Positions 25,007 through 54,957 of a stretch of DNA of 64,000 nucleotides are shown piece after piece (the first letter of the stretch is position 1; each line of letters opens with the position of its first letter). The position numbers were made by a program, and so were the translations under genes. The stretch lies in contig NZ_PJAQ01000012.1 in NCBI RefSeq assembly GCF_002836775.1, positions 62,001 to 126,000 of the forward strand. The letters are read 5' to 3'. The stretch comes from Colwellia sp. 12G3 (GTDB taxonomy: Bacteria > Pseudomonadota > Gammaproteobacteria > Enterobacterales > Alteromonadaceae). The notes beneath the pieces are model-generated. The model was not told the DNA's origin, searched no databases, and worked only from the letters and a program-made list of their open reading frames with translations.

Positions 25007-25666
25007 TTATAGATCGATATCAATGCTATAAGCAACATAGAATTTCATATCATCACTACTGCCACCATCATCGTAATCAGTTTTTGATACACCGAAGGTG
25101 AAGTTGTTTTTGCTTAATGAAACACCAAAGTCAGTTGAGTCTGTAGAGAAATCACCACTGTAATTACCAAGGTGAAAATTAACTTCTACTTCATTAGCAA
25201 GGGTTAAGGCATAATCGGCATTAACGTAAACAGAATCTCCAGCATCAATGCCGTCAGTTGAAGCCGATGTTAATACAGCTACACCTACTGTTAAGCCAGT
25301 AAAAGTAAAGCTACCGTAGATTTCAGAAAAATCAGCATCATCAGCATCGGGGTAAGCGTAATAAATGAAACCGACATCATATGACATACTTTCATTGATA
25401 TCTGCACCAAAGCCACCGTACAAATCTAATTCAGTACCACCCCATGCATTTGATACCCAAGTACCAGCATAAAAACCTGAATCATTAGCATAATCAATAC
25501 CACCAGAAACAGCAGCATCACCACCTGTTTGCTCAAGCCCACGCCATAAATAGTTGTTAGTAGCAGCTACGTTAGCTGATAAACCCTCAGTAGCTGATGC
25601 TTGGATAGAGATAGTTGAAGCCGCGAGTAATGCTGTCATAGCGATAGTCGTTATTGCTTTTTTCAT
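25007..25666 (-). CDS. TorF-family putative outer-membrane porin
   Basis: 219 residues. Clear signal peptide (MKKAITTIAMTALLAASTISIQASA), then the family-typical start LSANVAATNNYLWRGLEQTGG and SGGIDYANDSGFYAGTWVSN, with alternating beta-strands to an aromatic-poor C-terminus (FYVAYSIDIDL). This fits the TIGR02001/TorF-like beta-barrel proteins of marine gammaproteobacteria. The mature protein is very acidic, as is usual for halophilic or marine exported proteins. The substrate is unknown. A terminator follows it. Confidence 0.82.
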   Translation of the reverse strand: MKKAITTIAMTALLAASTISIQASATEGLSANVAATNNYLWRGLEQTGGDAAVSGGIDYANDSGFYAGTWVSNAWGGTELDLYGGFGADINESMSYDVGFIYYAYPDADDADFSEIYGSFTFTGLTVGVAVLTSASTDGIDAGDSVYVNADYALTLANEVEVNFHLGNYSGDFSTDSTDFGVSLSKNNFTFGVSKTDYDDGGSSDDMKFYVAYSIDIDL

Positions 25667-25977
25667 AAAATGTCTCGTTATTGTTTGTTATAAAAAGTGT
25701 CTGACGATTAATTTGCAAGCATGATGCCTAGATTATAAATTATGACCGTTATTCTTCATGTTTTTTATATCTATAATAATCAGATGGTTAGTGTTTTGGT
25801 TGATTCTTATTATCGTAATTTTGTTTAGGTATCGGTAAGTTGATGGACCATATTGGTGCGCATTTTTAGTAAATGCTCATAAAAAGTGCAATAGGACGAT
25901 CAATAGCAATAGCTAGGAACTCGCATTTTTAACTAGCATGGGTATAATACCTGCATATTTTTTTAGGAAACTTGCCC
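25667..25977. other. Gene-free region between the porin gene and rpe
   Basis: About 310 bases separating divergent genes. It must hold the leader and promoter of the porin gene on one side and the rpe promoter on the other (consensus -10 TATAAT at 25943-25948). No further repeat or small gene was seen. Confidence 0.6.
25943..25948 (+). promoter_or_regulatory. Candidate -10 box for rpe-trpS
   Basis: A perfect TATAAT lies 29 bp before the rpe start. The -35 position is poor (TCGCAT at 25921-25926, spacer 16), so only the -10 element is convincing. Confidence 0.5.
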
Positions 25978-44731: not shown

Positions 44732-46663
44732 TTATTGTTTTAAATAGGTGTAGCCATTCAAACAAGCTTCGTAAAAATCAATCAAGTTTACCCCTTCCCT
44801 CGGTTTTATTTTTCCGCGTGCTATTTGTGCATCAATTTCTTTTTTTATCATTTGCGCCATGATTGCTGGCGTATATTGCATGGTAGATAATACATTATCG
44901 ACCGATGAACCGTTGACGACTTCTTCAATATAAAAGTCTTTCGGATCATCGTCGTAGCTGACAATATGTACTTCATTTAAACGACCAAATAAGTTATGCA
45001 TATCCCCCATTACGTCTTGATAAGCGCCGGTTAAAAATATACCAATAAAGTAATCTTCCTCTTCTTTAAGTGTATGCATAGGAATATTATTTGCCACGCT
45101 GTCTTGACCTATGAATTTATCTATTTTTCCGTCACTATCACAGGTTATATCTACCAAACTACAGAGTTTAGTTGGTTTTTCGTTTAAACGAGAAATAGGC
45201 ACTACGGGCAGTATTTGGTCGATTGCCCAAGAATCTGCGGCCGATTGGAAAACAGAAAAGTTAGCTAAATACTGTGATGACAACATCTCAGAAATATCAT
45301 TGAGTTCTTCTGGGATAAACTCATGTAAATGCATCTGTTGTTCAATGGTATTGAGAATGCGCCAGTATAGTGTTTCGACCTTGGCTAACTCGTCTAAACT
45401 CAATATTCCGAGTTTAAATGCTTGCATGGCCTGCGACTTTAATTGTGTAACATCGTTATAGATTTCTTGATGACTATTATTTTTTTCGGCCTCAATAAGA
45501 CCTTTTTCTAAGTCACGAATGTTGGTGACTATAATGTGTTCGCCCGTTGCTTTACCTGTTGAGTATTGCGTACCACTGGGGTGGATTTCTCCAATAATAT
45601 TAGTGATAACACAAGAGTGATGAGCCGTCATCGCACGGCCACTCTCACTGACTAAGTGGGGGTGAGGAACAGATTCTAAGTCACAATTTTGCTTAAAACC
45701 GTAAACTATATCCGACACATATTCAGCGAGGTTATAGTTACACGATGAATCGTTGGTAGATTGAGAACCATCGTAATCAATCGCTAAACCACCACCCACA
45801 TCAACGTATTCGAGCGGCACACCTAATTTGATTAATTTACTGTAAACTAACGATGCTTCTTGAACGGCTTCTTTAATGGCACGAATATCGGTTAATTGGC
45901 TGCCAATATGAAAATGTAGAAGTTTAACACAGTCGCTTAAGCCAGCATCTTCTAAATAAGCCACCGCATTAAGAATTTCGGCAATGCTTAAACCAAATTT
46001 AGCGCGTTCACCACTTGAATGTTCCCATTTGCCACGACCTTTCACCATCATTTTTACACGTAGACCAATAATGGGTTTTATATCCAGTGTTTTGGCAAGC
46101 TCAACGAGTTTTATCAGTTCACTAAATTTCTCGATAACAATAATAATATTTCGGTCAATCTTTAAACCTAATAAAGCTAGGCGTAAATATTCTTCATCTT
46201 TATAACCATTTAAAATAGTTAATGAGTTCTTGTTAGTGTTATAAGCTAGTGCGGCAATGAGTTCAGGTTTTGAACCGGCTTCTAAACCGTAATTATAACG
46301 GCTACCCGCTTCAACGATTTCTTCAATAACCTCGCGCATTTGGTTTACTTTTACCGGAAAAACACCAAAGTATTGCCCTTCATAATTGGCTTCTTCTATG
46401 GTATTACGGAATGTTTTGTTCAATAGCTCAACTTGAGACCGTAAAATATCATGGAAGCGAATTACGGCAGGAAACTGTATACCCTCGCTTTGCATTTCCT
46501 TGACGACTTCTTTTAAATTGATCTTTAAGTTGGGTTGGTCATAACGTGGAATCACATGAATGTCGCCGTTTTCACCAATGTCAAAATAGCCATTGCCCCA
46601 GCGCTTTACTTGATAGATGTTTTCAGCGTCTTCAATTGACCACTGTGTTAAAGAAGTTTTCAA
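44732..46663 (-). CDS. speA: Biosynthetic arginine decarboxylase SpeA
   Basis: PLP enzyme converting arginine to agmatine. 643 residues with the start chosen. PLP lysine 105 in FPVKVNQ, GLEAGSKPEL, HFHIGSQL, DVGGGLAIDYDG, SESGRAMTAHH, and the catalytic-Cys region DITCDSDG. The frame is open to 46750, but that would overlap speB by 77 bases with unrelated residues. TTG 46663 has AGAG eight bases upstream and gives MKTSLTQWSIEDA, which matches the Shewanella-type N-terminus. It follows speB by ten bases. Confidence 0.93.
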   Translation of the reverse strand: MKTSLTQWSIEDAENIYQVKRWGNGYFDIGENGDIHVIPRYDQPNLKINLKEVVKEMQSEGIQFPAVIRFHDILRSQVELLNKTFRNTIEEANYEGQYFGVFPVKVNQMREVIEEIVEAGSRYNYGLEAGSKPELIAALAYNTNKNSLTILNGYKDEEYLRLALLGLKIDRNIIIVIEKFSELIKLVELAKTLDIKPIIGLRVKMMVKGRGKWEHSSGERAKFGLSIAEILNAVAYLEDAGLSDCVKLLHFHIGSQLTDIRAIKEAVQEASLVYSKLIKLGVPLEYVDVGGGLAIDYDGSQSTNDSSCNYNLAEYVSDIVYGFKQNCDLESVPHPHLVSESGRAMTAHHSCVITNIIGEIHPSGTQYSTGKATGEHIIVTNIRDLEKGLIEAEKNNSHQEIYNDVTQLKSQAMQAFKLGILSLDELAKVETLYWRILNTIEQQMHLHEFIPEELNDISEMLSSQYLANFSVFQSAADSWAIDQILPVVPISRLNEKPTKLCSLVDITCDSDGKIDKFIGQDSVANNIPMHTLKEEEDYFIGIFLTGAYQDVMGDMHNLFGRLNEVHIVSYDDDPKDFYIEEVVNGSSVDNVLSTMQYTPAIMAQMIKKEIDAQIARGKIKPREGVNLIDFYEACLNGYTYLKQ

Positions 46664-46673
46664 GGTGGAATCT

Positions 46674-47630
46674 CTACTTATGGTGTAAACAAATAATGAG
46701 TTCGCGTACAACTTTGGCGGCGAAAACATCACTATTGCCCGTTGTGTCAATCTCTGGTGAAAGCTCTACGACATCACACCCGACAAAGTTTTTATTTTTT
46801 AGTATTTTGCAAAGGCTAACAAAAGAATGAAAATCTTCACCACCAGGTTCTGGGGTGCCTGTTCCAGGGAAAAAGCTAGGGTCGAAGTAATCAAGATCTA
46901 ACGTTAAATAAATAGGACGCTGATCGTCAATTTCGGCCACGGTTCTTAAAAATTCATCACGACTATTCTTTAAGGTTTTATTAGCACGCATCCATTGATA
47001 TTCATCTTTAGTACCTGAGCGTATACCATACTGAATCAGTTGATGTTGTTCGGTGAAATGGTCGGTCACGCGTTTGATAATAGAGGCATGAGAATGATGA
47101 AAGCCTAAGTAGCCATCACGTAAATCAGCATGGGCGTCTAAGTGTAATAAAACCAGATCATCATAAGCCTTTAAATAAGTGGTAATGGGCGCATATGAAA
47201 TGGAGTGTTCACCACCTAAGGTTAACGTTTTTATATGGTGATTAACCAATAGTTCAGGGCTAAATTGTGCAAAGTAATCATCCGTTGCCGTTTGCCATTG
47301 TTGTTCAATATCTTTGTGTTCATTACTGGTCGGCGTGATTTTAGTGGATAGATTACCTAAATCGTAAAAGCAAATATCATCAATATCTTCATCTAAATAG
47401 GGCGAGTATGATTCTATGCCGTCAGATACTGCACGTAATGCATTAGGCCCTGCTTTTGTACCTTTTCTAAAACAGGCGGTACCGTCAAATTCAAAACCTA
47501 ATAGATAAATGGCATTTTCGTACAGACAGTCTGCAGTTTTCGCACAATCATAAATTGTTTCTGGTTGAGTAAAATTGACACTGAGTTCACAAACTTTATG
47601 TGGAAAGTTCGTCATGTTGATCGTATTCAT
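46674..47630 (-). CDS. speB: Agmatinase SpeB
   Basis: Manganese ureohydrolase turning agmatine into putrescine and urea. 318 residues. Metal-binding motifs GGEHSISY, HLDAHADLRD and TLDLDYFDPSFFPGTGTPEPGG are all intact. It is transcribed ahead of speA in a two-gene operon and divergent from the AdoMet decarboxylase/speE pair. Confidence 0.92.
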   Translation of the reverse strand: MNTINMTNFPHKVCELSVNFTQPETIYDCAKTADCLYENAIYLLGFEFDGTACFRKGTKAGPNALRAVSDGIESYSPYLDEDIDDICFYDLGNLSTKITPTSNEHKDIEQQWQTATDDYFAQFSPELLVNHHIKTLTLGGEHSISYAPITTYLKAYDDLVLLHLDAHADLRDGYLGFHHSHASIIKRVTDHFTEQHQLIQYGIRSGTKDEYQWMRANKTLKNSRDEFLRTVAEIDDQRPIYLTLDLDYFDPSFFPGTGTPEPGGEDFHSFVSLCKILKNKNFVGCDVVELSPEIDTTGNSDVFAAKVVRELIICLHHK

Positions 47631-48035
47631 CGCTAATAACTACGTTAAGTGTGGGTAAAATTAAATATCGCATTATGCTGAAAAACGCAATAAAGTATAG
47701 CTTTTTATTTCAAAAAAAAATTATCAATAAATTGATTAAATTTATATTGAAATCTACACTTTTTTTTGTAAAATAGCGCAAATTTTGTGTGTGCTCTATT
47801 TACAGTACACAGCCTCATACCAATTCCATTAAGTTTGTGATCTTGTTGTGCGTAGAAAAAATAATTCAAGGGTAGGCGCTTGATTGACCAATAGCTTGCT
47901 ATTGGGATTGAAAGCAACGCAGACTTGGAATATTTTAGCCCGTATAAGAGGGCAATAATTTAACGAAATTGGTATTCTATTTTCGACTTTATTTTTAGTC
48001 ATAATTTGTTGAAATAGCAACATGATATTTTAGGA
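47631..48035. other. Gene-free divergent region between speB and the AdoMet decarboxylase gene
   Basis: About 400 bases with no gene. The middle is the family 2 element; the remainder is AT-rich and must hold promoters for both polyamine operons. TAGGA at 48031-48035 is the ribosome site of the decarboxylase gene. Confidence 0.6.
47817..47975. repeat. Family 2 extragenic element, copy 2
   Basis: ATACCAATT (47817-47825) and AATTGGTAT (47967-47975) bound 159 bp. The left part aligns with the inverted copy at 27734-27895 (ATACCAATT.CATTAA, then CGTAG-AAAAA). An internal CCAATAGCTTGCTATTGG-type hairpin is present. Non-coding. Confidence 0.75.
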
Positions 48036-49004
48036 ATGCTTGTGTTTTTTGAAGGTTCAGAAAAAAAGGTTGAGATATTAGTTCATCACGAACAACTTTC
48101 ATTGCTTAATGATTTAAGCGATGATTTTTGGTCTGAACTCGTTAATCGTTGTCATGCCCAAATACTGTCGAGTATTCGTAATGAACATTGCAAAGCATTT
48201 TTATTATCAGAATCTAGCTTATTTGTTTGGGATGATTGTTTTCTTATATTAACTTGCGGTGAAACCAATTTAGTCAATTCTGTTGAGTATTTTATTCAAC
48301 AACTTGGCGTAGATAAAATTAAGCATTTAACCTATCAGCGTAAAAACGAGTACTTCTCACATGCTCAACCGAGTTGTTTCGGCGATGATATAAAGCGCTT
48401 AACTCAATATATCCCAGGTAAAGCGCTGCGATTTGGCGCAATGGACAGCCACCATAATTTTGTATTTCATCAAGATAATGATTTTCAGGCATCAATTGAT
48501 GATAAAACATATGAAATATTTGCTTATCAAATTAGTGAGGATGCTTCAAATCACCTGACTCGTCCGGGATTACAAGCCAATGATATTCGTCAATTTTTAA
48601 GGCTTGAACAACTGATCCCCGATTTTCAAATAGATGACTTTGTTTTTCAGCCTTATGGTTATTCTGTTAATGCTATTTTGGCAAAAAAATATCTGACAAT
48701 CCATATTACGCCTCAATCTGATAGCAGTTATGTAAGTTTTGAATCAAACATTAATTTAATTAAATTAGTACCGATTATTTTAGCCGTATTGCAGCCGTCA
48801 TCGTTTGATCTACTGAGTTATAACGAAACTGAATTTGAGGCATTAACCGCTATAAATGTTCCAAATAATTACGTGAGCCAATCGTTGGTTCAGCAAAAAT
48901 TAACCAATGGTTTCTTGGTTAATTTTGCTAACTATATTTTACCTAAACAACAATTTATTCAAGCCACTGAGTTTGATATCGCGGGAGAAAACCATGAACT
49001 CTAA
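48036..49004 (+). CDS. S-adenosylmethionine decarboxylase, eukaryotic type (pyruvoyl)
   Basis: Makes decarboxylated AdoMet, the aminopropyl donor for spermidine. 322 residues. It matches the eukaryotic AdoMetDC family and not bacterial SpeD. Seen: FFEGSEKKVEI (human FFEGTEKLLEV, with both Glu); LLSESSLFV, where Glu59-Ser60 is the expected self-cleavage site giving the pyruvoyl group; Cys74 in LTCGET; Ser210 in QPYGYSVN; His223 in TIHITP; YVSFESN. The human putrescine-site Lys80 is replaced by Leu and the TPE Glu by Gln. ATG 48036 abuts the ribosome site TAGGA, so GTG 48042 (six-base spacing) may be the true start. It overlaps speE by 11 bases. Confidence 0.9.
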   Translation: MLVFFEGSEKKVEILVHHEQLSLLNDLSDDFWSELVNRCHAQILSSIRNEHCKAFLLSESSLFVWDDCFLILTCGETNLVNSVEYFIQQLGVDKIKHLTYQRKNEYFSHAQPSCFGDDIKRLTQYIPGKALRFGAMDSHHNFVFHQDNDFQASIDDKTYEIFAYQISEDASNHLTRPGLQANDIRQFLRLEQLIPDFQIDDFVFQPYGYSVNAILAKKYLTIHITPQSDSSYVSFESNINLIKLVPIILAVLQPSSFDLLSYNETEFEALTAINVPNNYVSQSLVQQKLTNGFLVNFANYILPKQQFIQATEFDIAGENHEL

Positions 49005-49854
49005 CTTATGGATTGAAGAGACGTTTAAAGATTTTTTGGGTCTAAAATTTAAAGTTGAAAAAGTATTATTTTCTGGAAAAAGTGAATTTCAAACGGTTGA
49101 TGTCGTTGAAACAAAAGGCCATGGAAAAATGTTGCTCAATGACGGTTTAATTATGGTCACTGAACGAGATGAATTTGCTTATCACGATATGATTTCCCAC
49201 GTGCCGTTATTTGTTCATCCTTCACCGAAAAATGTTTTGATTATTGGTGGTGGTGACGGCGGTACAGCGAGAGAGGTTTTGCGTCACAGCAATGTTGAAA
49301 AATGCACTATGGTTGAAATTGATAGTATGGTTGTTGATGCTTGTCGTGCGCATATTCCACAAACGGCTAAAGATCTTGATCATGAAAAATTAACGCTAAT
49401 TATTGGTGATGGCGTTGAGTTTGTGAAAAACACGACTGAAAAATTTGATGTCATTATTGTTGATAGTACCGATCCTATTGGTCCAGCGCAGCCCTTATTT
49501 GGGGAGGCTTTTTATCAAGATGTTTATCACTGCTTAAGTGATGACGGTATTGTGGTTTCTCAAGGAGAGTCTTCTTGGTATGCCATGGACATCCAGCAAT
49601 CATTATTAAAAGTATTGAATGTAGTTTTTCCTCAAACCTATTTATACAGTTTTAGTAATTTAACCTATCCGGGCGGTTTGTGGAGTTTTACCTTTGCAAC
49701 CAAAAAACATCATCCAACCAAAGATTTTAATGCGGAACGAGTAGAAAGCAGCGGTTTATCTTTTGACTACTATAATGCAGCGCTTCATAGTGCCGCATTT
49801 GCTTTGCCAAGTTTTGCTATAAAAGGTTTGCAAGGCTTGATTGATAACGACTAA
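48994..49854 (+). CDS. speE: Spermidine synthase SpeE
   Basis: Transfers the aminopropyl group from decarboxylated AdoMet to putrescine. 286 residues. Motifs: LIIGGGDGGTAREVLRH (AdoMet fold), MVEIDSMV, DVIIVDSTDPIGPA, and QGESSWY. The frame is open to 48907, but ATG 48994 has GGGAG seven bases upstream and gives the family N-terminus MNSNLWIEETF. Coupled by overlap to the AdoMet decarboxylase gene. Confidence 0.95.
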   Translation: MNSNLWIEETFKDFLGLKFKVEKVLFSGKSEFQTVDVVETKGHGKMLLNDGLIMVTERDEFAYHDMISHVPLFVHPSPKNVLIIGGGDGGTAREVLRHSNVEKCTMVEIDSMVVDACRAHIPQTAKDLDHEKLTLIIGDGVEFVKNTTEKFDVIIVDSTDPIGPAQPLFGEAFYQDVYHCLSDDGIVVSQGESSWYAMDIQQSLLKVLNVVFPQTYLYSFSNLTYPGGLWSFTFATKKHHPTKDFNAERVESSGLSFDYYNAALHSAAFALPSFAIKGLQGLIDND

Positions 49855-49996: not shown

Positions 49997-51769
49997 CTAT
50001 TCGCATGCTAGAACTTTCGTATTTACTTTATTTGAAATCCATACCGTTTGATAAGGTGTTAAGATTAATTCTTGTGTTAACTCCGTTATTTCACGCTTGC
50101 TAATCAGTTCAAACCACGAATCGGTAATAATTAAGTTGAGCTCACTTAATGGCAAGGCTATCGATTGGTCAGAAATATTACTCACACAAAATATGCTTTG
50201 TTTTCGGTCTTGGCTTTGACGCCAAAAACCAAAGAGCTGCAAACCTAAATGAAGGGTAAATTGCGTCGCATTGGGGTGAAAGGCTGGCTGCTTAATACGG
50301 ATGTTTAGTAGAGCCTTTAACCTTGATAGCACTTTTACATGATGTAAGTTTTTGTCAGCAAGTGCTTTTTCTAAAACATCTTCGTGCCAACGACGTCGAT
50401 TAATAGAGCGGTTATGGTGGGTATTTGCTAATTTTTGATAATCGTTTTGCGTGCCTAACAGGCTATGAATATAGAGTCCCGGCACACCTTCAAGGGCAAA
50501 CATAATGGCATGAGCACAAATAAAACGTTCAAAGTTCCATTCATCTTTACCGTTAACAGTACCTTGCATCGCATCATAGAGTGAGATGTTCATTTCATAA
50601 GCTTTCTGCTTACCATTATCAGCCGTGCGCCACGATATTTTACCGCCAAAATTTTCAACCGTATGCACTAATTTATCAAGTTCATCTTCACTTAATAAAC
50701 CTTCAGCGGGACGTAAACCTATACCATCATGTGAGGCAATAAAATTAAAGTACATAGTGCCGTCTTGTGATGGTGGCATACTCATTAACCAACGTTTTAA
50801 ATATAAACAATTACCGGTGAGCAAGGTGTTTAACAGTAAGGGTGGTAATGAAAAGTTATAGATACCATGCGCTTCATTGGCATTGCCAAAATACGTTAGG
50901 TTTTGTGTGTTTGGAATATTGGTTTCGGTAATGATAATGGCTTGAGGCTCTGCCGATTCAATGAGTGTTCTCAATAACCGAACAACCTCATGGGTTTCGG
51001 GTAGATTGATACTCGGTGTTCCCACAACTTTCCATAAAAAGGCGATGGCATCTAATCTAAATATTTTCACGCCCATGTCTAGGTATTGTCTGATGATGGA
51101 GGTAAATGCTTTTAATACTTCAGGATTACGAAAATCAAAGTCGACTTGATCGTGACTAAACGTGCACCAAACCCATTGTTTGCCATTTCCCGTTTCAACT
51201 TCTTTGAGTAATGGAGATGTGCGTGGGCGTATTACCTCAGATAAGTTATCTTCTGGCAGTGCCGTGAAAAAGTAGTCGCTGCCTTGCCCTTCGCCTTTAA
51301 TAAAATTATCAAACCAAGCGCTCCGACTTGAGCAATGGTTAATCACCAGATCAGACATCAAATGGTAGTTTTTACTGATATCTTCAATATCACACCAGGT
51401 TCCCAATGACTCATTGACCGAAGAATAATCAATGATGGAAAAACCGTCATCTGAGCTGTAGGGAAAAAAGGGTAAAATATGGACACTGTTAATGGTATTT
51501 TTAATGGTGCGATCTAAAAAATTCTTTAAGGTTTGTAGAGGCGGTTCATCTGTTTTGATAATACTATCACCGTAGGTAATTAAAATAATATCTTCTTCAG
51601 ACCACTGATTGCTAAAAGGTTTTACCTCGGCGACCTCGCTTGATAATTGCATGATGTTAAGTAGGTCTTGTGCTATTTCGTCCAATGACAGCTCAAGTGG
51701 CACATCGTGATAAATAGTCGCAAGTTGCTGAGTTAACTTATCTTTTAGTTTTTTTACCTGTGTGTTCAT
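49997..51769 (-). CDS. GH13_18 phosphorylase, likely glucosylglycerate phosphorylase
   Basis: 590 residues, sucrose-phosphorylase-like (beta/alpha)8 enzyme. The catalytic nucleophile is Asp240 ([10 protein letters not shown]), the acid/base Glu282 (IITETNIPN) and the transition-state Asp348 ([10 protein letters not shown]). GH13_18 members include sucrose, sucrose-6-phosphate and glucosylglycerate phosphorylases. The operon with glucosylphosphoglycerate synthase, phosphatase and glycerate kinase points to glucosylglycerate plus phosphate giving glucose-1-phosphate and D-glycerate. Last gene of the operon, 24 bases after the synthase. Confidence 0.85.
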
Positions 51770-51793
51770 GTGTGTTCCGCCCTACAAGATTGA

Positions 51794-53026
51794 CTACTTT
51801 ATTGATTGACTAAATTCTTCATTGTCTAACTCAACGGCTTCCTTTAATTGTAGTAAAATGTCAGGAATCGCACTAACAACGCGGTTCCAAGAAGGGATGA
51901 AAGGTGTTTCCATTGGTTGCTCTAAAAAGATACTTCCTGCCGTTAATATGTTTTCAGCGAACATTTCTACCGCTTTTTCTTCGCTATGAATATCTAGCTT
52001 AAGGCCATTCATCATAGCGTCATTTCGATAGGTTTCCACGTAATCTAGCGCGATACGATAATAGGTTGCTTTTAAGGTTCTAAAGGTTTCAGGGGTGAAT
52101 GTTTCACCTTGCGTAGCTAATTTACGAATAAAGGCCTTACTGATATCAATCGACATTTTAGATAATCCACCAGCGGTATTATCTAAGGATAAATCTTGAT
52201 GTTTATGATCATAGGTTGAAGCTATATCTACTTGGCATATACGATTGGGTGAGTAATTACGGTACATTTCAGAGAGGACACCTATTTCTAAGCCCCAATC
52301 ACTTGGAATACGTAGGTCGTTTAATACATCTCGACGAAAAGAAAATTCACCGGCTAAGGGATACAAGAAGCTGTCCATATACTCAAGATAATCACAATGG
52401 CCCACTGTTTTTTTCAAGGCTTTGATTAGTGGAGTAACGAGTAAGCGTGATACGCGGCCATTAATTTTTCCATCGGCAACACGCGCATAAAAACCTTTAG
52501 AAAATTCATAGTTAAACAATGGGTTAGCCACAGGGTAGAGTAACCTATCAAGTAAATCTCTTTCATAAGTCAAAATATCACAGTCGTGCAACGCAATAGA
52601 CTCAGCTTTGCCCGAAGCCAAAATGTATCCCATGCAATACCAAACATTACGACCCTTACCTAGCTCTTTAGGGGCTAAGCCTAGCGCTTTTAATTTTGCA
52701 TCGATTGCCTGTAGCCTTGGGCCATCATTCCACAATACACGATGATGTTGAGGTAATTGGCCAAAAAAGGATAACGCATGTTTATACTGTTCGAGATCCG
52801 CTCTGTCCAAGCCAATAACAATTTCAGATAAGTACTTCACGTCTTTAATTTTATTAATAATATCAGGTAAGGCTTTACCTTCTAATTCAGAGAACAAAGA
52901 CGGTAACATTAGCCCTAATGAGCGTTTCTTAGAGAACTCCAATAGTTCAGCTGCCATATCCGCAGGTTCACGTTGCGCCAAATTGTGTAATGTTGTCACT
53001 GTGCCATTTTGATAAAAATCAGCCAT
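51794..53026 (-). CDS. gpgS: Glucosyl-3-phosphoglycerate synthase-type glycosyltransferase
   Basis: 410 residues, GT81-like retaining glycosyltransferase. The metal/nucleotide motif is Asp148-Cys-Asp150 in ALHDCDI. GRVSRLLVTPLIKAL, GEFSFRRDVL and the late DHKHQ are family-like. Expected reaction: NDP-glucose plus 3-phosphoglycerate to glucosyl-3-phosphoglycerate. It overlaps the phosphatase gene upstream by 8 bases, which fits a two-step synthesis. A mannosyl specificity cannot be excluded from sequence. Confidence 0.82.
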   Translation of the reverse strand: MADFYQNGTVTTLHNLAQREPADMAAELLEFSKKRSLGLMLPSLFSELEGKALPDIINKIKDVKYLSEIVIGLDRADLEQYKHALSFFGQLPQHHRVLWNDGPRLQAIDAKLKALGLAPKELGKGRNVWYCMGYILASGKAESIALHDCDILTYERDLLDRLLYPVANPLFNYEFSKGFYARVADGKINGRVSRLLVTPLIKALKKTVGHCDYLEYMDSFLYPLAGEFSFRRDVLNDLRIPSDWGLEIGVLSEMYRNYSPNRICQVDIASTYDHKHQDLSLDNTAGGLSKMSIDISKAFIRKLATQGETFTPETFRTLKATYYRIALDYVETYRNDAMMNGLKLDIHSEEKAVEMFAENILTAGSIFLEQPMETPFIPSWNRVVSAIPDILLQLKEAVELDNEEFSQSIK

Positions 53027-53882
53027 GATTTTCTCCTGAGTTAATTGAAGGTGAGAGCAGTTGATTAGCTAAAAGTTTTTGAATCGCTTCCGCCCAACCT
53101 TCCGGACCGAATAATTGGGTTTGAGTGGTTTTATACTGACGATATAATGTCGGGAAATCATGAACCGGAGAGCGCACTTGAACCGCTATATCTGCGGCTT
53201 CTAACATAGCGATATCATTTTCACCGTCCCCTAAGGCAATAGTGAATATTGAAAGGTTATCAAAATGCTCGCGGTATCGTTCAGTTAACCAAATAAGCGC
53301 TTGGCCTTTATCGCAAAAATCCCCGATATGAATAAATCGTCCACCTTGCACAACATTGGCTCCTAGGTAAATCAACCTGTCTATAAAGGCTTTCTTCGTC
53401 GAATCATCGCCTAACCAATGCAGCGGCTCAGCAAACTGTCGTTTTTTTGCTCGTTCAGTTTCGTCTAAATTTAATCCTGTTATTTTACATAATGCGGATG
53501 CCGATAAGGTTGAAAAACTCTGGTAGTCACGGCTAAATTCATCGGTGTGTTCAGCCAATAAATTTAACCAATAGTGTCTTGGTAAACTAAATGATTTAAC
53601 CCAATAATTATCAATAACAACCGTATCCGCAGGTTGCGTGTTGAAGGTGTTTATTGGAATGTATATCGCAGCGCCATTTTCTATAATAAAGGGAGTATTT
53701 AAATTGAGCGCTTGGTGAATTATTTCTAATTCTGCGAATGTTTTACTGGTATTTAAAATAACAGGAATATCAGCATTTTTTAATTGCTCAAGTGTTTTGT
53801 CTGCCGCTTTTGATTGGTAAGTGTAATGGTCTAGCAGTGTGCCATCTAGATCACTGAAAATAAGCGTTTTCAGTTTTCTCAT
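53019..53882 (-). CDS. HAD phosphatase of the mannosyl/glucosyl-3-phosphoglycerate phosphatase type
   Basis: 287 residues, Cof/MpgP-type HAD hydrolase. DLDGT (11-15) supplies the nucleophile, followed by NTSKT and the Mg-binding GDGENDIAMLEAAD late in the chain. Expected to dephosphorylate glucosyl-3-phosphoglycerate to glucosylglycerate. The start overlaps the kinase gene by four bases and the stop overlaps the synthase gene by eight, so all three are translationally coupled. Confidence 0.84.
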   Translation of the reverse strand: MRKLKTLIFSDLDGTLLDHYTYQSKAADKTLEQLKNADIPVILNTSKTFAELEIIHQALNLNTPFIIENGAAIYIPINTFNTQPADTVVIDNYWVKSFSLPRHYWLNLLAEHTDEFSRDYQSFSTLSASALCKITGLNLDETERAKKRQFAEPLHWLGDDSTKKAFIDRLIYLGANVVQGGRFIHIGDFCDKGQALIWLTERYREHFDNLSIFTIALGDGENDIAMLEAADIAVQVRSPVHDFPTLYRQYKTTQTQLFGPEGWAEAIQKLLANQLLSPSINSGENHG

Positions 53883-54760
53883 ATACTTTCCGTGATCGAC
53901 ATTTTTGTGATTTTTCGATCGTAATCTAAGTAAAAAATAGCATCAGCAGACTGCGAAATAGTATTGCATCCTTGAACACTCAATCTTTGGAAGTATTGGG
54001 TGAAATTCAAAATTTCCGCTGGCGTCATTATTTTCGAATTGACTAAACCGATGTTTCTGTCTTGTAATTTTTGTTCTTGCTCTAAACGCCATTGATAGAC
54101 ACAATCAAATGAAGGGGCTTGCAGTGCTAACCAGAAATCCATTTTTTCATACAAAGGCTCATAATAAACTTTAAGTTGTTGATTAACATAGTTTCGCCAC
54201 TCTCCTGTTTTATCGTATTGACATTCAAGCTCATTGATTGGCGCTTTTAATTGCTCGGTTGTTTGCGGTTTTACGCCCCAGCACCAGCCTTCTACTATGA
54301 TAATATCTGTCGGCTTTTCAATAAGCGGCCATTGATCTTCAGGGTAAGGTTCGTCGGTCGCTTTGTTGAACTTTTGAATAGCAAAACCTGTTTTTTTCTC
54401 TTTTAACTGAGTCAAAATATGATTAAGTTCAACAACATCATGAGTGCCGGGAACGCCCCTTGTTGCTAATAAAGGATGAATGTCTTGTGCTAACTGTTTG
54501 CGTTTTTCGCTCGTTAAATAAAAATCATCTAATGACATCACCACAACATTAAGTTGATATTGGTTGGTTAAATAGGTGGCGATAAAATCAGTTAATGTTG
54601 ACTTACCGCTGCCTTGACAGCCATTTATGCCAACAAAATAAGGACCGTCATTTTGCGAGAATTGACTAAATATTTGATCTGCAAGTGGCTGGTAATATTG
54701 CGTTACTGCGTGTTTGAAGTCTTCAGGTAAACTGTGTTGTTTAATAAAAGTTGAAAGCAT
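53879..54760 (-). CDS. D-glycerate 3-kinase-like P-loop kinase
   Basis: 293 residues. Walker A GINGCQGSGKST (44-55), SLDDFYL, the glycerate-kinase-like TRGVPGTHD and VEGWCWGV. This matches the plant-type glycerate kinase / YggC-like P-loop family. In this operon it would phosphorylate the glycerate released by the phosphorylase back to 3-phosphoglycerate. First gene of the four-gene operon. Confidence 0.83.
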   Translation of the reverse strand: MLSTFIKQHSLPEDFKHAVTQYYQPLADQIFSQFSQNDGPYFVGINGCQGSGKSTLTDFIATYLTNQYQLNVVVMSLDDFYLTSEKRKQLAQDIHPLLATRGVPGTHDVVELNHILTQLKEKKTGFAIQKFNKATDEPYPEDQWPLIEKPTDIIIVEGWCWGVKPQTTEQLKAPINELECQYDKTGEWRNYVNQQLKVYYEPLYEKMDFWLALQAPSFDCVYQWRLEQEQKLQDRNIGLVNSKIMTPAEILNFTQYFQRLSVQGCNTISQSADAIFYLDYDRKITKMSITESI

Positions 54761-54957
54761 AATTTACACCGTAAATAAAAAATACAAGTTATGGTTATCA
54801 TTTCAAGTCTTATGCCATTTAAGTAGCCATTTAATTTTTACTGGTAATCTATTGTAAAATGGTAATAAATTATATTTTTTTGATATATGGTACTTTTATT
54901 ATATAAAGGAAAAGTGCACCAATTAAAAGGTTTGCTGCATATTGGTGCATTCATTAG

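Follow-up and report, generated by a model that had tools for sequence, protein, structure and literature searches.

A putative glucosylglycerate cycle operon in Colwellia sp. 12G3 and its predicted control by nitrogen limitation

When would a bacterium switch on, together, the genes for making a compatible solute and the genes for taking it apart again? The question is raised by a stretch of 64,000 nucleotides from Colwellia sp. 12G3 (contig NZ_PJAQ01000012.1, positions 62,001 to 126,000 of the forward strand; hereafter the window), in which four adjacent genes appear to encode synthesis and recovery of glucosylglycerate (GGA). We conclude that these genes probably form one operon for a closed GGA cycle, induced by nitrogen limitation through NtrC and sigma-54. 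Gene families, motifs, gene order, conservation, and promoter and enhancer matches above controls were computed; from these we infer what the enzymes do, that the genes are co-transcribed, that NtrC binds, and how the operon is induced and what it serves in the cell.

A first-pass annotation of the window had named a glycerate kinase, a phosphatase, a GT81-like synthase and a GH13_18 phosphorylase, and the list of open reading frames (ORFs) bears out all four in place, on the minus strand. The first operon gene encodes the glycerate 3-kinase GlyK (53879..54760, 293 aa; GLYK class, P-loop). It is followed by the predicted glucosyl-3-phosphoglycerate phosphatase GpgP (53019..53882, 287 aa; HAD-IIB, MPGP family), the putative glucosyl-3-phosphoglycerate synthase GpgS (51794..53026, 410 aa; GT81-like) and the predicted GH13_18 glucosylglycerate phosphorylase GGaP (49997..51769, 590 aa). 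The genes had been said to overlap or nearly touch, and they do: kinase and phosphatase overlap by 4 nt, phosphatase and synthase overlap by 8 nt, and 24 nt separate synthase and phosphorylase.

In the proposed cycle, GpgS would transfer the glucose of a nucleotide sugar onto 3-phosphoglycerate, after which GpgP would strip the phosphate to leave GGA. GGaP, with phosphate, would split GGA into glucose-1-phosphate and D-glycerate, and the kinase would turn glycerate back into 3-phosphoglycerate. Transcription probably starts from a sigma-54 promoter under activation by phosphorylated NtrC at a site about 130 bp upstream. With an NtrC-activated start, a shortage of nitrogen would induce the cycle. 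GGA may then act as a nitrogen-free anionic solute, balancing potassium in place of glutamate, and also as a recoverable carbon store.

Predicted control of the operon

Two predicted regulatory sites, absent from the first-pass annotation, lie upstream of the operon on the minus strand. The RpoN (sigma-54) promoter consensus TGGCACnnTTnTTGC and the NtrC box TGCACCAnnnTGGTGCA were taken from an excerpt of PMC8743547. A predicted sigma-54 promoter, TGGCATAAGACTTGA (54803..54817), has its first base 57 bp before the GlyK start, and a predicted NtrC enhancer, TGCACCAATATGCAGCA (54933..54949), agrees with 12/14 palindrome positions and stands 132 bp upstream of the sigma-54 site. A possible second NtrC half-site, TGGTGCA (54915..54921, minus strand), is weak; it was read from the alignment, its coordinates were counted by hand, and as a full site it falls below the scan cut-off. 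When the upstream regions of six Colwelliaceae (the window and five other loci) were aligned, the TGCACCAATATGCAGCA and TGGCATAAGACTTGA blocks stayed alike and the rest diverged.

The sites recur among relatives. The locus sample comprised the best 80 named loci of at least 575 confirmed GpgS relatives, and 350 bp upstream of 79 operons were scanned (the window and 78/80 loci; L063 and L088 have no upstream DNA), with cut-offs of at least 10.5 of 12 for sigma-54 and at least 11 of 14 for NtrC. A sigma-54 match was found before 60/79 operons on the coding strand versus 3/79 on the reverse strand (40 Markov shuffle sets: mean 5.7, maximum 10), and an NtrC match before 28/79 versus 0/79 for the reversed pattern (shuffle sets: mean 1.5, maximum 4). 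Both matches precede 21/79 operons; of 543 other ORFs called mechanically in these loci, 39 have a sigma-54 match, 24 an NtrC match and 9 both. Fisher values for these operon and other-ORF counts ignore kinship, for which the reverse-strand and cluster counts allow in part. With GpgS clustered at 90% identity, sigma-54 matches occur in 36/49 clusters versus 2 and NtrC matches in 17/49 versus 0; at 85% the counts are 21/32 versus 2/32 and 11/32 versus 0/32. At 80%, where 65/79 loci merge into one cluster, they are 5/10 versus 0 and 1/10 versus 0. An NtrC match lies 130-159 bp upstream of the sigma-54 match in nine loci: the window, five Colwelliaceae and three Shewanella.

The source genome (5.06 Mb, 68 contigs) holds both kinds of site together with an NtrC gene. 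Its own glnA has an 11/14 NtrC match and a sigma-54 match upstream, and is followed, after one small ORF, by ntrB and ntrC, both of which pass curated models. Genome-wide, the NtrC pattern with at most two mismatches finds 12 sites versus 7 for the reversed pattern, so that the palindrome alone is weak evidence. In 4/12 of these sites, read by eye, a sigma-54 match lies between site and gene start: before this operon, an NMT1-like binding protein (PF13379), a TorF-family porin and a CBS-domain protein. The NMT1-like protein neighbours a nitrate-type transporter ATPase (over its cut-off), a permease (below its cut-off) and an ANTAR regulator; these nitrate-type ABC transporter genes (L150:7111-10439 of the same genome) have NtrC and sigma-54 matches upstream and are preceded by the ANTAR response regulator gene.

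Further points weigh against the proposed control. The score weights and cut-offs were chosen after the window motif had been seen. The NtrC match is missing in 51/79 loci and the sigma-54 match in 19/79. Alteromonas loci carry a sigma-54 match at about -68 with no NtrC match of at least 11, and nine loci from Marinomonas, Vibrio, Porticoccaceae-like and other lineages (L054, L056, L060, L084, L086, L090, L092, L094 and L095) have the NtrC match on the gpgP side of the sigma-54 match, 104-171 bp downstream. Four further loci, scanned at five upstream regions, gave no sigma-54 match: Pseudoalteromonas L120 (where an NtrC match scores 11), two from alphaproteobacteria and one on a Psychrobacter plasmid. 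The region before ycjM of E. coli has none either.

The alternative that survives best accepts the sigma-54 promoter but assigns its activation in most lineages to another enhancer-binding protein, with NtrC acting only in some, such as Colwellia and Shewanella. The Alteromonas arrangement and the nine loci with a downstream NtrC match speak for it; such downstream matches possibly reflect another enhancer-binding protein or a second NtrC role. On the other side, the 11/32 GpgS clusters with NtrC matches span Vibrio, Shewanella, Porticoccaceae and Colwelliaceae, among others, and a fixed palindrome may miss degenerate sites. We regard this alternative as doubtful but worth keeping in view.

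It is less probable still, and in our judgement unlikely, that the same enzymes respond mainly to osmotic stress or cold by way of a sigma-70 promoter and that the sigma-54 and NtrC matches have no function. A sigma-70-like match does exist at 54806-54779, though the scan returned such matches at chance frequency (17 versus 18.0 expected), and the loci that lack a strong NtrC palindrome are in keeping with this explanation. Against it stand the strand bias of the sigma-54 matches and the retention of the promoter block where other upstream DNA diverges. The first-pass annotation had placed the operon in a cold marine bacterium. Kinship agrees, the closest named GpgS among the matches listed being that of Colwellia sp. 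75C3 (96% identical), but cold is not our best guess for the trigger, as the promoter matches point to nitrogen limitation.

Identities of the four enzymes

The proposed four-step assignment, synthesis and recovery together, is supported by motifs, a tree, relatives of solved structure, genome context and the finding of no other glycerate kinase among the classes searched. Two D-glycerate 3-kinases of solved structure (PDB 6ckg, E 2.4e-22; 7xpc, E 5.8e-21) match the kinase, which has a Walker A motif at residue 47 that is present in 57/57 relatives; homology and P-loop place it in the GLYK class, and it passes no curated NCBIfam model. It is the only GLYK-type match in the source genome. Searches of the genome for GlxK-type (PF02595) and GckA-type (PF13660) kinases were both empty, and the same searches were positive in 5/14 and 4/14 control genomes, respectively. 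A second glycerate kinase was rejected on this basis, which leaves the operon kinase as the only candidate among the three classes searched.

A recycling arm may also serve mainly for catabolism of imported GGA, as suggested for dark-tolerant Prochlorococcus, in which a putative transporter gene adjoins the operon (PMC11631117, in excerpt). Here, however, no transporter was recognised beside the operon, which is flanked by a pirin-like gene, 316 nt upstream, and by speE, convergent on the downstream side, and the synthase and phosphatase share the operon with the recycling genes. We consider import as the main role improbable.

With 436 bits, the phosphatase clears the cut-off of 362 for NF001218, the NCBIfam model of mannosyl-3-phosphoglycerate phosphatase. 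It matches PDB 3ztw (E 6.9e-25) and shows DLDGT and GDGEND, which are HAD motifs of the DxDGT and GDxxND types. Relatives retain the former in 77/78 cases and the latter in 78/78, in agreement with membership of the MPGP family. This family also acts on glucosyl-3-phosphoglycerate.

The synthase supplies an objection to the enzymatic reading. It passes no curated GpgS model, reaching 353 bits across residues 3-404 against GpgS_Meth (NF040724, curated cut-off 700) and 67 bits against PRK13915 (cut-off 262), and it matches the solved GpgS enzymes PDB 7pdo and 7p5l weakly (E about 8e-6). It is GpgS-like by context and a putative member of the GT81 GpgS family. Given the half-cut-off score and the weak matches to solved enzymes, its donor and acceptor are inferred only, and they cannot be told from sequence. 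An HDCD motif at residue 147, kept in 80/80 relatives, is of the DxD type that binds metal and sugar nucleotide in GpgS (GT81).

These two enzymes could instead belong to an MpgS/MpgP-type pathway with mannosylglycerate as the solute. The matched phosphatase models are named for mannosyl-3-phosphoglycerate phosphatase, and a solved mannosyl-3-phosphoglycerate synthase, 3f1y, matches the window synthase weakly (E 8e-4). We find this explanation very improbable: the synthase models matched are GpgS only, the solved GpgS enzymes outscore 3f1y, and the downstream phosphorylase bears a GGaP signature.

That signature comes from published criteria. According to excerpted passages of a review, strict glucosylglycerate phosphorylases are told by (T/S)ETN at beta-strand 5 and by a conserved loop-A Glu where most others have Gln (Franceus and Desmet, PMC7178133), and part of another paper uses the same motifs to name a GGaP-type enzyme in a marine alphaproteobacterium (PMC10608839). 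The window protein, which matches GH13_18 enzymes, has ITETN, with ETN in 79/79 relatives. Its loop A reads YEMN (YEIN in E. coli YcjM), with YE in 78/79 relatives and one gap. In three annotated sucrose phosphorylases, PEIH or VEIH stands in place of ETN, and loop A has YQ. The window protein is 37% identical to YcjM over 571 residues versus 25-30% to these three, and in a 28-row tree the three split with 100/100 support from the clade of YcjM and the window protein; the tree is midpoint-rooted and holds one characterised GGaP (YcjM, flagged as a long branch), the Meiothermus and Spirochaeta enzymes not being included. Grouping with sucrose phosphorylases had been named in the first-pass annotation as a result that would help to overturn the assignment; the check was run, and the protein groups with YcjM instead. 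That it is a sucrose phosphorylase, leaving the operon without a recycling arm, is hardly credible: its best NCBIfam model is indeed sucrose_gtfA, but the 196 bits lie below the sucrose phosphorylase cut-off of 334, and score, motifs and tree position led us to reject this identity.

Gene order and neighbours among relatives

All four genes are collinear in 57/80 loci, and the last three (phosphatase, synthase and phosphorylase) in 80/80. GpgS relatives occur in 50/369 genomes of a class sample, four of them weak (E above 1e-9), and in 82/147 genomes of a family sample. The 23 loci whose operon lacks the kinase were followed up in 22 genomes (L109 was left out): 14 have a GLYK kinase elsewhere, six a GlxK-type kinase and two neither, a GLYK match of E 4e-4 in one GlxK genome being left uncounted. 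In the family sample, GlyK is present in 80/82 genomes with GpgS versus 40/65 without it, by a comparison of lists made by eye that ignores kinship. The kinase is thus more widespread than the cycle.

Kinase and phosphatase are fused as a single ORF of 577-592 aa in 11/80 loci from several lineages (L061, L064, L077, L089, L091, L093, L097, L103, L106, L108 and L118). The fusion label requires five changes on the GpgS gene tree, at least four of them on well-supported branches, so that, should the gene tree follow the species, the fusion arose or was lost repeatedly. Eight family genomes have an open reading frame of 580-603 aa where the kinase lies, probably the same fusion.

Other arrangements were also seen. 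The GH13 gene is convergent to gpgS, and not downstream on the same strand, in L019, L024, L025, L036, L037, L038, L124 and L126. On a Psychrobacter cryohalolentis plasmid (L125:3899-6212), gpgP and gpgS lie near transposase genes, with no phosphorylase gene within the 10.6 kb viewed. Most of the plasmid records examined annotate the genes merely as glycosyl transferase (or hypothetical protein), HAD-IIB family hydrolase and sugar phosphorylase, so that the pathway is easily missed.

No conserved functional neighbour was found in the relatives, and the recurring neighbours examined were ordinary: two methyltransferases, MoeA, a thiolase, an ABC ATPase, a Cys/Met metabolism enzyme and a dehydrogenase acyltransferase. 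In Methylophaga (L077:10051-10905) a nucleotidyl transferase gene lies downstream of the phosphorylase gene, and in Qingshengfaniella (L126:3233-7962) galU adjoins gpgP-gpgS on the upstream side. Neighbours of these two kinds could possibly supply sugar nucleotide from recycled glucose-1-phosphate.

Within the window, polyamine genes adjoin the operon (44732-49854). They comprise ORFs for a SpeA-like decarboxylase and an agmatinase-like enzyme, both identified by eye, a gene for an AdoMet decarboxylase assigned to PF01536 (below the TIGR00535 cut-off) and the spermidine synthase gene speE, which is the one convergent to the phosphorylase gene. Elsewhere in the window, the gene for the TorF-family putative porin (25007-25666) has an NtrC-like palindrome (25844-25860) and a sigma-54-like match upstream, and is possibly a further member of the nitrogen regulon. 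A scan of the operon region for intrinsic terminators found one versus 4.3 expected, below chance. A search for ectoine synthase gave no match in the genome and none in any control genome either, and is uninformative.

Comparison with known systems

GGA is nitrogen-free by structure, and it is reportedly linked, in the titles of cited works, to nitrogen stress in mycobacteria and in nitrogen-poor cyanobacteria. A predicted nitrogen-limitation promoter before a complete cycle fits both this nature and these links. Among the papers listed by our literature searches, judged by titles and abstract openings, we found no description of NtrC/sigma-54 control of these genes, and for Gammaproteobacteria no regulatory explanation of GGA under nitrogen shortage. 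The papers found in which glucosylglycerate and NtrC both occur have the former in reference lists only, save a remark that Gimesia maris makes GGA, described as nitrogen-free, under nitrogen limitation (PMC5924519). The negative charge of GGA is thought to balance potassium, according to an excerpt of PMC4390839.

We offer a broader proposal tentatively, leaning slightly towards doubt: across marine Gammaproteobacteria, the GGA cycle may belong to the nitrogen-limitation regulon, with NtrC and sigma-54 switching cells from a nitrogen-containing to a nitrogen-free anionic solute, the enzymes of both arms made together and the fusion coupling two steps. If so, heterotrophs in nitrogen-poor seawater would have in GGA both a regulated nitrogen-sparing osmolyte and a carbon currency. 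Among those that may, on this proposal, make GGA under nitrogen stress are Colwellia, Shewanella, Alteromonas and Porticoccaceae, and the exchange with Prochlorococcus proposed in the available part of PMC11631117 could have such heterotrophs as its source. The recurrent sigma-54/NtrC match before the whole cycle would provide a regulatory explanation open to simple expression tests.

The first-pass annotation had called a closed cycle in a single operon notable. That judgement does not stand, as such operons are already in print and are common in the marine Gammaproteobacteria sampled. The gene set is known; what is new is the predicted control by nitrogen limitation and the recurrent kinase-phosphatase fusion. 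Genes for glycerate kinase, GpgS or GpgP often stand beside those for GGaP, and the neighbourhoods in the excerpted review share with the window operon this gene company as well as (T/S)ETN and the loop-A Glu (PMC7178133). Those passages are silent on sigma-54/NtrC control and on kinase-phosphatase fusions.

The "glucosylglycerate metabolism operon" of Prochlorococcus NATL2A is said, in the part of PMC11631117 available, to recycle GGA to glucose-1-phosphate and 3-phosphoglycerate. Compared by description only, it resembles the window operon in the co-location of synthesis and recycling genes, and differs in belonging to a cyanobacterium with an adjacent putative transporter gene, in an account whose available part leaves NtrC unmentioned. 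E. coli YcjM is a homologous GH13_18 GGaP, likewise with the (T/S)ETN motif and a loop-A Glu, but its cluster is one of sugar uptake and catabolism without GpgS or GpgP genes, unlike the window operon.

The upstream sites can be compared with those of E. coli glnA and glnK. Scanned likewise, glnA has a sigma-54 match at -99 and, 90 and 122 bp further upstream, NtrC matches at -189 and -221 with scores of 12 and 13, and glnK has NtrC matches 69 and 89 bp upstream of its sigma-54 match with scores of 10 and 9. These promoters serve nitrogen assimilation genes, whereas the predicted sites in the window front a compatible-solute operon.

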